This document shows positions 33,481 through 36,922 of a DNA stretch of 64,000 nucleotides, one piece after another; the stretch's first letter is position 1, and every line of letters begins with the position of its first letter. This DNA is from Streptomyces parvus (GTDB taxonomy: Bacteria > Actinomycetota > Actinomycetes > Streptomycetales > Streptomycetaceae): assembly GCF_032121415.1 (NCBI RefSeq), contig NZ_CP135079.1:558001-622000 (forward strand). Direction: 5' to 3'. The notes beneath the pieces were generated by a model. That model was given only the letters and a program-made list of their open reading frames with translations. It was not told where the DNA came from and searched no databases. A program made the position numbers and the translations under genes.

Positions 33481-34455
33481 ATGTCCACCGCACCCAACCG
33501 CCGCGCGGTAGCGGTGATCCTGCTGATCCCCCTGGTGGTGACCCTCGCCCTCTGGGCCTTCGCCTGGCCCGCCGCCCGGATCGCGCCGCGCCACCTGCCG
33601 GTCGGCGTGGCGGGCGCGGCACCGGCCGCCCAGCAGCTGGAGCAGCGGTTCGAGCAGCGCGACGGCGCCTTCGAGGTGCACCGTTACGCCGACGAGGGCG
33701 CCGCCCGCGCCGCGATCGAGGACCGGGTCGTATACGGAGCCGTCATCGCCACCGCGCAGGGGCCGCACCTGCTCACCGCGTCGGCGGCGAGCCCCGTCGT
33801 CTCCCAGCTGCTGCGCGAGGCCGTGACCGCGTCCGCCCCGGCGGGCACGCGGGTCCAGGTCACCGATGTGGTCGCCGCACCGCCCGGGGACCCGCGCGGC
33901 AGCGCGCTCGGCGCGAGCGTCCTGCCCCTGGCCCTGGCGGGAATGGCGGCCGGAGCCGTCGTCACCTTCATGGGGCTGCGCGGGGCGCGCGGCGTGTCGA
34001 CCCTGCTGGCGGCGTCCACGCTGGTGGGGCTCGCCGCCACGGCCGTGGCGCACAGCTGGCTCGGCGTGATCTCGGGCGACTGGTGGACGGAGGCGGGAGT
34101 GCTCGCGCTCACCGTGCTGGCCATCGGTTCGGGGGTGGCGGGGCTCGCCGCCCTGTTCGGTTCGCGCGGCATCGGGCTCGGCGCCCTTCTGATGGTCCTG
34201 CTGGGCAATTCCTTCTCCGGTGTCACCAGCGCACCGCAGATGCTGCCCGAGCCCGTCGGGGCGATCGGCCAGTGGCTCCCGCCGGGCGCGGGCGGTTCCC
34301 TGCTCCGCTCGGTCGCCTTCTTCGACGGGAGCGCGGCGGTCGGGCCCCTCCTGACGCTCTCGCTGTGGTCCGCCCTCGGACTGGCGGCGGTACTTCTCGC
34401 CCGGCGGACGCCGAAGCCCGCCGAGCCGGCCCGGGAGCCGGCCCTGACCGGCTGA
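33481..34455 (+). CDS. Multi-pass membrane protein (ABC-2/YhgE-like)
   Basis: The 324-residue protein has one N-terminal membrane helix (AVILLIPLVVTLALWAFAWP), an extracytoplasmic domain of about 120 residues (VGVAGAAPAAQQLEQRF to VQVTDVVAAPP) and about six further helices in the C-terminal half. This resembles ABC-2-type permease or YhgE/Pip-like proteins, often linked to export or drug resistance. No ATPase lies beside it. It is probably controlled by the divergent TetR. Confidence 0.7.
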   Translation: MSTAPNRRAVAVILLIPLVVTLALWAFAWPAARIAPRHLPVGVAGAAPAAQQLEQRFEQRDGAFEVHRYADEGAARAAIEDRVVYGAVIATAQGPHLLTASAASPVVSQLLREAVTASAPAGTRVQVTDVVAAPPGDPRGSALGASVLPLALAGMAAGAVVTFMGLRGARGVSTLLAASTLVGLAATAVAHSWLGVISGDWWTEAGVLALTVLAIGSGVAGLAALFGSRGIGLGALLMVLLGNSFSGVTSAPQMLPEPVGAIGQWLPPGAGGSLLRSVAFFDGSAAVGPLLTLSLWSALGLAAVLLARRTPKPAEPAREPALTG

Positions 34456-34467
34456 GCACCGGGTCCG

Positions 34468-34523
34468 GACAGCACAGAGCCGGGTGCCCCTCATCGAGGA
34501 GGGGCACCCGGCTCTGTGCTGTC
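34468..34523. terminator. 25-bp perfect-stem bidirectional terminator
   Basis: The arms 34468-34492 and 34499-34523 pair without mismatch around a six-base loop (ATCGAG). It lies between the convergent membrane protein and antitoxin genes. Confidence 0.9.
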
Positions 34524-34557
34524 GCGGTCCGGGCGCGGGCTCCGTCCGGTCGGAGCG

Positions 34558-34854
34558 TCAGGCGTCCCGGCCGTCGCCGTTGCCGTCGCGGGGGCGGTGC
34601 TCGGCGGCGATACCGAACCTGCGCCGTTCGCCCTGAGCGGAGGGCGCGGAGTTGATCGAGGAGACCGAGCTGATCACCTGCTCCTCGGCGGCAGCCTCCT
34701 CCGCTTCGAGTCGTTGCAGGTCAGCGGCGGATACCAGCGCGATGAGGGGCTTGCCGTGCCGTGTCACCACGACGCGCTCACCGCCGTAGACGACGCGGTT
34801 GATCAGTTCGGCGAGCTCCGCCCGTGCTTGCGTCACCGGAATCTCGTAGGCCAT
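34558..34854 (-). CDS. Phd/YefM-family antitoxin without adjacent toxin
   Basis: The protein has about 98 residues from ATG 34854. Residues 1-60 match Phd/YefM antitoxins: AYEIPVTQARAELAELINRV and VVVTRHGKPLIALVSAADLQ. These dimerise, bind their own operator and neutralise a toxin through the C-terminus. Here the C-terminus is long, charged and disordered-looking, and no RelE/YoeB-like toxin gene is adjacent. Alternative ATGs at 34863 and 34866 exist. A TGTACA-type operator lies 19 bases upstream. Confidence 0.85.
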   Translation of the reverse strand: MAYEIPVTQARAELAELINRVVYGGERVVVTRHGKPLIALVSAADLQRLEAEEAAAEEQVISSVSSINSAPSAQGERRRFGIAAEHRPRDGNGDGRDA

Positions 34855-34873
34855 AGTCACCATCATAACCTTC

Positions 34874-34888
34874 TGTACGTCCTGTACA
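34874..34888. promoter_or_regulatory. YefM-like TGTACA operator
   Basis: TGTACGTCCTGTACA is a perfect inverted repeat, TGTAC-N5-GTACA, and contains the TGTACA hexamer recognised by characterised YefM antitoxins. It lies in the 92-base gap between the divergent antitoxin and ClpP-like genes, so it could control both. Confidence 0.6.
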
Positions 34889-34946: not shown

Positions 34947-35552
34947 ATGATCCGCCCCGCCGCCCGCTACGTCCTTCCCGAGTTCACCGAGCGCACCGCC
35001 ACAGGAACCCGGACGCAGGACCCGTACTCCAAGCTGCTGTCCGAGCGGATCGTCTTCCTCGGAAGCCCGATCGACGACACCGCGGCGAGCGACCTCGTCG
35101 CCCAGCTCATGTATCTGGAGCACGCCGATCCGGACCGGCCCCTGTCGCTGTACATCAACTCCCCCGGTGGTTCGTTCCAGGCGATGGCGGCGGTCTACGA
35201 CACGATGCGCTACCTCACCTGCGACGTGGAGACCTTCTGCCTGGGGCAGGCGGGCTCCTACGCGGCGGCCCTGCTCGCGGCCGGGGCGAAGGGGCGGCGA
35301 CATGCACTGCCCGGCGCGCGGGTAGTCATCCAGCAGCCCGCCGTGGAGGAGCCGATGCGGGGCCAGCCGTCCGACCTGGAGATCCACGCGCGCGAACTGG
35401 TGCGCACCCGCGAGATGTTCGCGGCCATGCCGGTCCGGCACACGGGCCGGACCGCGGAGCAGATCACCGCCGACATCGAGCGCGACACCATCCTCGACGC
35501 GAAGGCCGCCCTCGCCTACGGGCTGGTCGACCACGTCGTGGAGAACCGCTGA
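34947..35552 (+). CDS. ClpP-like protein lacking the catalytic His
   Basis: The 201-residue protein aligns over its full length with ClpP proteolytic subunits: [40 protein letters not shown], and C-terminal [20 protein letters not shown]. The Ser region [16 protein letters not shown] keeps the nucleophile. The motif that normally reads RVMIHQP is [12 protein letters not shown] here, so the catalytic His is Gln (codon CAG at 35330-35332). It may be an inactive paralog that assembles with active ClpP. The ATG follows AGGAGAGAGG. Confidence 0.88.
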
Positions 35553-35602: not shown

Positions 35603-35908
35603 ATGGAGCCACCCGAGTTCCCGCCCCTGCCCGCCCTGACCCGCGCCGAGGGCGAGTTCGTCGACTGCTATCTGGCCGTGCTCGACCAGATCGGCCGGAT
35701 CAACCCGGCGCACGGCGGCGACACCTACAGCGCGCTGCGGGCCGCCCAGGCCCTGGCCTCCGGGGCGGCGGCCCTGCGCGACGCCCTGGCCCTGATGCAC
35801 GAGCGAGGCGAGTCGCGGCTCCACGCCGCCACCCTGGCGCGGGCCCTGCGCGTCCTGGACGGGGAGCGCCGGGCGGGGCGGGTCGCGATGCCTCCGCCGG
35901 TGAACTGA
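35603..35908 (+). CDS. Conserved hypothetical protein
   Basis: This 101-residue, largely helical protein, with DCYLAVLDQIGRINPAHGGD and RAAQALASGAAALRDALALM, starts 50 bases after the ClpP-like gene and is probably co-transcribed. I do not recognise a family. It has no membrane segment or signal peptide, and could be a partner of the ClpP-like protein. Confidence 0.65.
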   Translation: MEPPEFPPLPALTRAEGEFVDCYLAVLDQIGRINPAHGGDTYSALRAAQALASGAAALRDALALMHERGESRLHAATLARALRVLDGERRAGRVAMPPPVN

Positions 35909-36448: not shown

Positions 36449-36922
36449 ATGTCTGCGCAGGTTCATGTCCCGTCTCTGTTCGCCCGGGTCGGTACGGCTT
36501 CGGCGCTCACCCTGGCCGTGACGTCCTCGATGCTGGCGCCCGGTCTGGTGAGCGATGCCGAGGCCGCCACCGCCCACTCGACGAAGGCCCTGAAGGTCGC
36601 CGCGTCGAAGAAGGGGTCTCCCTACAAGTACGGAGCGGCGGGCCCCAGCCGCTTCGACTGTTCGGGGCTGACGCTCTACTCGTTCAAGAAGGCCGGCAAG
36701 AAGCTTCCCCGCACGGCACAGCAGCAGTACAACAAGACCCGCCATATCGCGAAGTCGCAGCGCAAACGCGGCGACCTCGTCTTCTTCCATTCGGGGCGCA
36801 GCGTCTACCACGTGGGCATCTACGCCGGGGCCGGGAAGATCTGGCACTCCCCCAAATCGGGGGACGTGGTGCGACTGGCGAAAATCTGGTCCAAGAGCGT
36901 CTGGTACGGACGGGTCCGCTGA
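36449..36922 (+). CDS. Secreted NlpC/P60 (C40) cell-wall peptidase
   Basis: The 157-residue precursor has a signal peptide (about 1-39, ALTLAVTSSMLAPGLVSDAE followed by AAT). The NlpC/P60 domain covers the rest. The nucleophile Cys is in RFDCSGLTLYSF, the catalytic His in SVYHVGIYAGAG, and the third polar residue is the His in KIWHSPKSGDVV. Such enzymes cut gamma-D-Glu-diaminopimelate bonds in peptidoglycan stems. Placement under a c-di-AMP riboswitch links cell-wall hydrolysis to osmotic signalling. ATG 36449 is six bases after GAAGGG. Confidence 0.92.
   Translation: MSAQVHVPSLFARVGTASALTLAVTSSMLAPGLVSDAEAATAHSTKALKVAASKKGSPYKYGAAGPSRFDCSGLTLYSFKKAGKKLPRTAQQQYNKTRHIAKSQRKRGDLVFFHSGRSVYHVGIYAGAGKIWHSPKSGDVVRLAKIWSKSVWYGRVR

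Follow-up and report, generated by a model that had tools for sequence, protein, structure and literature searches.

When a ClpP paralog keeps its fold and loses a catalytic residue, does it persist as a working part of the Clp machinery, or is it on the way to being lost? The question is raised by a gene of Streptomyces parvus at positions 34947 to 35552 (forward strand) of the window, the 64,000-nucleotide stretch of contig NZ_CP135079.1 (positions 558,001 to 622,000) that we analyzed. The gene encodes a ClpP2-like, putatively pseudoproteolytic protein of 201 amino acids, and a ribosome-binding-site-like AGGAGA lies about 10 bases 5′ of its ATG. The Pfam profile CLP_protease matched residues 20 to 200 at 217.8 bits, and the top match by sequence in the PDB was ClpP2. 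An AlphaFold2 model gave a confident ClpP monomer (pLDDT, 88.2; pTM, 0.80), and the best 50 rows of a Foldseek search with this model were all ClpP structures, led by Mycobacterium tuberculosis ClpP1P2 chains (51% identity) and including among the top matches chains of the Streptomyces hawaiiensis ClpC1:ClpP1P2 entries 8xon and 8xn4 (56% identity). The protein has the ClpP fold and the family profile required of an active ClpP peptidase (S14).

The catalytic triad is another matter. The initial annotation, made from the letters alone, had pointed to retained GQAGS and DIERD segments and to a segment reading RVVIQQP, all of which are present in the translated open reading frame. Alignment to solved ClpP2 chains and to the organism's own ClpP1 and ClpP2 placed the three catalytic sites at Ser104 (codon at 35256 to 35258, forward strand), Gln129 (CAG, 35331 to 35333, forward strand), and Asp180 (35484 to 35486, forward strand). 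The nucleophile and the aspartate are kept and the histidine alone is missing, replaced by glutamine as the initial annotation had proposed. The same glutamine occurs in all seven nearest Streptomyces orthologs (~93 to 97% identical; pairwise dS from the window gene, 0.10 to 0.24), so that neither a sequencing error nor a mutation of this one strain can explain it. Of the three ClpP matches in the genome, two form a ClpP1/ClpP2 tandem and have Ser-His-Asp. The third is the window protein, which is 55.9% identical to this ClpP2 and 45.3% identical to this ClpP1 over the matched parts. No ClpP4 match was found in a search of this genome. The gene stands alone, apart from clpP1P2, in a conserved neighborhood, and this lone Streptomyces paralog is probably clpP5; we use that name below.

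We searched 295 Streptomyces genomes with the window protein, repeating the search in 71 of these, and took as orthologs the 217 genomes with a best match of ~1e-69 or better. All 217 were read, with residue letters taken from tblastn segments; more divergent or broken copies (L383 to L388, L392, and L244) were left out of all counts. Since a small gene that we call orf101 follows in the same orientation in 216 of the 217, the set represents one locus. The Ser-His-Asp triad was intact in 84 orthologs and lost in 133, in 42 combinations. At the histidine site we read His in 99, Gln in 49, Arg in 40, Glu in 13, and Ser in 8, with Asp, Gly, Thr, Ala, or Lys in eight more; the serine was gone in 47 and the aspartate in 37. 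Such a mixed family rules out a single substitution fixed across the genus. Orthologs with histidine, which according to the initial annotation would speak against a genuine replacement, do exist, but only among more distant orthologs; within the window protein's own clade none of 69 members has a full triad. Beyond Streptomyces, ClpP5 was intact in all 10 loci read from a sister genus (g7) and in none of three loci from another such genus (g13). At least 80 further loci named from GTDB genomes, some of which may duplicate genomes already counted, comprised 70 that were not ClpP5 (69 Ser-His-Asp and one S-Q-D) and 10 that were, one of them intact. ClpP5 was absent above the cut from 78 of 295 genomes, some of which carry frameshifted or truncated copies, and the gene is therefore dispensable for many species. 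In five loci (L383, L384, L385, L244, and L392), a frameshifted or truncated clpP5 lies beside an unbroken orf101 match.

We estimated the number of losses on a quick maximum-likelihood gene tree built after removal of the three triad columns. The 217 ClpP5 sequences formed one clade, separate from the ClpP2 and ClpP4 rows, within which the intact and lost states required at least 22 changes; minimum letter changes were 40 at the histidine site, 28 at the serine, and 25 at the aspartate. The maximal all-lost clades numbered 27, but branch support was weak for many of them. Ten independent pairs that differ in state sit on well-supported branches, and so about ten is the safer count of separate losses. 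In the window clade, 30 of the 69 proteins are S-Q-D like the window protein, and the remainder have other letters at the histidine site or further changes at the serine or aspartate. Most likely, the ancestral ClpP5 was active. The triad may also have been regained: parsimony placed two Arg-to-His changes at the histidine site, and a two-trait model (with presence of ClpP4 as the second trait) fitted no regain in its independent form and some in its dependent form where ClpP4 is present. The mixed state of the family, the repeated losses, and the missing histidine of ClpP4 (below) are all points absent from the initial annotation.

If catalysis was lost many times, the proteins that lost it might simply be decaying. 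Under a slow-decay explanation, selection on ClpP5 is relaxed, the triad goes first, and loss of the gene follows. Some of the evidence leans this way, as lost proteins are more diverse than intact ones (mean site diversity, 0.323 versus 0.243), and median omega is 0.357 in the window clade and 0.366 in other lost proteins versus 0.285 in intact ones (0.17 among the eight nearest sequences), these being NG86 values from overlapping pairs with dS of 0.05 to 0.9 and very GC-rich codons. The broken copies and the 78 genomes lacking ClpP5 above the cut fit as well. The triad sites are themselves among the most relaxed, a circular result in that the groups were defined by the triad. Against decay, conservation across the 133 lost proteins reaches at least 97% at 54 positions, omega is well under 1, no internal stops occurred among the matches listed, and each of the 69 window-clade proteins was read as a near full-length match. 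Nor is breakage limited to triad-lost copies, since two of the three frameshifted ones (L384 and L385) are Ser-His-Asp. Taken together, omega and the conserved positions indicate selection that is slightly relaxed but clearly purifying, and we consider slow decay a rather unlikely account.

The positions that survive loss of the triad are informative. All 133 lost proteins retain L30, L121, D195, and E150, and 132 retain each of Y69, G75, and G139; of these, L30, Y69, and L121 are pocket residues. The arginine adjoining Asp180, which we take to be the oligomerization sensor corresponding to E. coli R170, persists in 132 of the 133, including 36 of the 37 proteins that lack Asp180 itself. Other pocket sites vary. 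Of the 133 lost proteins, 28 have Val, Ser, or Thr at residue 89, presumably the counterpart of E. coli F82, and 38 have a residue other than glutamate at position 33. Residue 67, which is Ser in the window protein as in the seven aligned ClpP2 rows, differs from Ser in 45 of the 133 lost and 15 of 84 intact proteins. Given this variation in the lost proteins, docking of partner proteins may weaken or change in sub-clades.

We examined the neighborhood for features that travel with clpP5. Downstream, orf101 (35603 to 35908, forward strand) encodes a family-less small protein of 101 amino acids and, from its conserved position, is a probable operon partner; it lies within 300 bp in 215 loci. 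Thirty-four positions are invariant in 30 homologs. It had no match in Pfam or NCBIfam, and further sequence searches returned nothing significant. An AlphaFold2 model predicted three helices weakly (pLDDT, 71; pTM, 0.47), and Foldseek with this weak model gave no match at an E value of 0.001 or below. Assignment of a function by homology failed, as the sequence searches gave neither a family nor a convincing relative of solved structure. In lists compiled by hand, orf101 matches occurred in 240 of 295 genomes, 216 with ClpP5 and 24 without ClpP5 above the cut; in the seven of these 24 that were inspected (L244, L383 to L387, and L392), a broken, truncated, or divergent clpP5 lies beside orf101. 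An NlpC/P60 hydrolase gene (36458 to 36922) is a neighbor in 201 of 217 clpP5 loci. Some neighboring genes are putatively named as urease genes.

Upstream and divergent lies a Phd/YefM-type antitoxin gene (34558 to 34866, reverse strand; PF02604, 52.1 bits; TIGR01552, 56.6 bits), an arrangement found in 196 of 217 loci; 13 of 206 matches to this gene read over a stop codon. No toxin gene was recognized beside it in the window. A very long hairpin (34452 to 34540; −81 kcal/mol; z, −10.4) lies between the antitoxin gene and a convergent ABC-type gene and is perhaps a two-way terminator. The divergent promoter region between the antitoxin gene and clpP5 contains an operator-like site, TGTACGTCCTGTACA, at 34874 to 34888 (no strand assigned). 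TGTACA occurs within 260 bp upstream of clpP5 in 211 of 217 loci versus 7 in mononucleotide-shuffled controls, the consensus over 207 of the 211 loci is GTACGTCCTGTACATTTTTTAC, and the pattern TGTACNTCCTGTACA has a single occurrence in the whole genome. TGTACA is reported as the core of YefM operators (PMC7730913), and it is therefore reasonable to infer that the neighboring YefM-type gene may regulate clpP5. Direct identity with the described operator does not hold, as the core fits but the TGTAC half-sites start 9 bp apart in our examples versus the 12 bp, center to center, reported for the yefM-yoeB operator (PMC7730913).

Tight control of this kind, suggested by the divergent antitoxin gene and the conserved TGTACA site, would suit a poison subunit. 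Under this explanation, ClpP5 would enter ClpP1P2 and lower or redirect its activity, much as ClpP_ADEP acts on ClpP1, with its dose under the YefM-type regulator. There is precedent in the report that an extra Streptomyces ClpP can block ClpP1 tetradecamers (PMC12607617). That protein, however, is described there as nearest ClpP1 and active with ClpP2, while ClpP5 is nearest ClpP2, and the candidate assembly arginine is kept in ClpP5. We regard a poisoning role as rather unlikely, on a par with slow decay.

ClpP5 is not the only ClpP2-type subunit in the genus to lack the histidine. ClpP4, the ClpP2-type member of ClpP3P4, has Gly at that site in 57 of 57 loci, equal to 52 of 52 genomes (56 triads S-G-D and one S-G-E), while its partner ClpP3 is Ser-His-Asp in all 57. 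The loci read were L137, L140 to L143, L146, L151, L251 to L280, and L414 to L433, of which five repeat a genome and 20 were taken mostly from the more divergent end. From these sequences, the ClpP3P4 backup protease would appear to have one catalytic subunit type, ClpP3. Separately, genome G004 carries an extra pair (L250, positions 835 to 2094; L291 is probably the same locus) in which a ClpP2-type S-Q-D protein neighbors a ClpP1-type protein with Ser-His-Asp.

ClpP4 matches better than 1e-80 were present in 148 of 295 genomes (again from a list compiled by hand). We considered whether loss of the ClpP3P4 backup pair drives ClpP5 to become a pseudoprotease. Intact and lost ClpP5 numbered 64 and 41 in genomes with ClpP4 and 20 and 92 in those without (Fisher P = 6e-11), and a Pagel-type two-trait model favored dependence (likelihood ratio, 16.7; P = 0.002). 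The informative independent pairs mostly agreed in direction, with a mean of 1.8 in the same direction and 0.2 in the opposite direction among eight pairs on well-supported branches. However, common ancestry can account for much of the association, the independent-pairs sign test was not significant, with too few informative pairs, and the fitted rate of triad loss pointed the opposite way, at 3.0 with ClpP4 and 1.0 without it. Absence of ClpP3P4 was rejected as the cause of triad loss in ClpP5, and we think such a cause quite improbable. Least probable is that ClpP5 remains a peptidase in which another base replaces the histidine: 83 of the 118 non-His proteins retain Ser, the window protein keeps its Asp, and the oxyanion Gly pair is kept, but the same family loses Ser and Asp as well, and the histidine site takes Q, R, E, S, G, T, A, D, or K.

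We therefore favor, at a probability of about one-half, the reading that the window protein is a pseudoprotease of the ClpP2 type that forms a docking or structural ring, which ranks as most likely, above slow decay and a poison subunit. For ClpP1P2 of Streptomyces, it is reported that the triad of ClpP1 cuts, that ClpP2 docks ClpX, ClpC1, and ClpC2, and that ClpP1 with ClpP2 S131A degrades casein with ClpC1 at full activity (PMC9765437). As the catalytic serine of ClpP2 is dispensable in that work, an additional subunit of the ClpP2 type can do without its triad and still function. ClpP2 S94 has also been tied to ClpC1 specificity, with Tyr at this position in ClpP1 (PMC9765437); by our mapping, ClpP5 residue 67 would be the S94 site. 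The repeated loss of the triad, the low omega, the closeness to ClpP2, Ser at residue 67, the kept arginine, L30, Y69, L121, and D195, the Gly of ClpP4, and the S-Q-D protein of G004 speak for this reading. Several observations count against it. Pocket sites vary in some lost proteins, constraint is somewhat lower in lost than in intact proteins, 78 genomes do without a ClpP5 above the cut, and several single Streptomyces cattleya ClpPs with ClpX are reported to shorten antitoxin half-life in E. coli (PMC4989188), a result to which the host E. coli ClpP may have contributed. The initial annotation had suggested a pseudoprotease that modulates a ClpP ring or competes for adaptors; conservation outside the triad, the open frame, purifying selection, and similar losses in ClpP2-type paralogs fit a non-catalytic paralog that could modulate a ring, and to that extent support the interpretation in part.

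With docking as the function, ClpP5 would form heptameric rings stacked on a catalytic ClpP1 ring in place of ClpP2, leaving the cutting to ClpP1. Its docking face would have an altered preference for ClpX, for ClpC1/ClpC2, or for an adaptor. The divergent YefM-type regulator, acting at the TGTACA site, would set the dose of ClpP5, and orf101 might be an accessory protein of the ring. A broader and decidedly speculative proposal is that, in the extra ClpP systems, docking (ClpP2-type) and cutting (ClpP1-type) subunits have parted permanently, with ClpP4 and, repeatedly, ClpP5 becoming non-catalytic docking rings. ClpP5 and orf101 might then be a cassette under the control of the orphan YefM-type protein. 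Itself Clp-labile, this repressor would sense how much Clp capacity there is and free the pseudo-ring and its helper when proteolysis runs short.

Loss of catalysis many times by the same paralog in one genus, with the fold kept, amounts to a natural experiment, and the matched active and inactive orthologs allow a non-catalytic role in the ClpP ring to be tested. A single catalytic type in ClpP3P4 would bear on ClpP-targeting antibiotics. Our analysis also names a conserved family-less protein, orf101, and a candidate regulator. The consulted main text of PMC9765437 makes no mention of a missing histidine, and triad-less Streptomyces ClpP4 or ClpP5 was not found in titles, the beginnings of abstracts, or the consulted text of PMC9765437, PMC12607617, and PMC9775585; it may be in print in older papers cited there (Viala 2000; Gominet 2011) or in supplements. 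Within a literature search of the same scope, we did not meet the repeated loss in ClpP5, the Gly of ClpP4, the orf101 partner, or the TGTACA site.

Among known systems, the window protein resembles ClpP2 of Streptomyces and Mycobacterium ClpP1P2, which is its closest paralog, supplies its closest solved sequences, and shares Ser at residue 67. ClpP2, however, keeps Ser-His-Asp, both in this genome and in 69 of the 70 non-ClpP5 loci among the matches listed, whereas the window's ClpP5 has Gln and is encoded alone, apart from clpP1. The window gene is also like clpP5 of Streptomyces lividans, described as monocistronic (PMC9765437), in being a lone third clpP apart from clpP1P2, from which we infer the name. 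ClpP_ADEP of S. hawaiiensis is, as ClpP5 may be, an extra Streptomyces ClpP that modulates the main ring, but it is tied to an antibiotic cluster and reported closest to ClpP1 (PMC12607617), a property not shared by ClpP5 (55.9% identity to ClpP2, 45.3% to ClpP1). Non-catalytic ClpP homologs are already known in the form of ClpR, found in cyanobacteria, plastids, and apicoplasts, which lacks the catalytic triad and works alongside catalytic ClpP (PMC7966870). ClpP5 likewise has an incomplete triad and a kept fold, with only the histidine missing in the window protein. Unlike ClpR, its best matches by sequence and structure are actinobacterial ClpP2 (our tree covered ClpP5, ClpP2, and ClpP4), and its loss of the triad is repeated and incomplete within one genus. 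A further parallel is ClpP4 of ClpP3P4, by its S. lividans name, which is also without the histidine.
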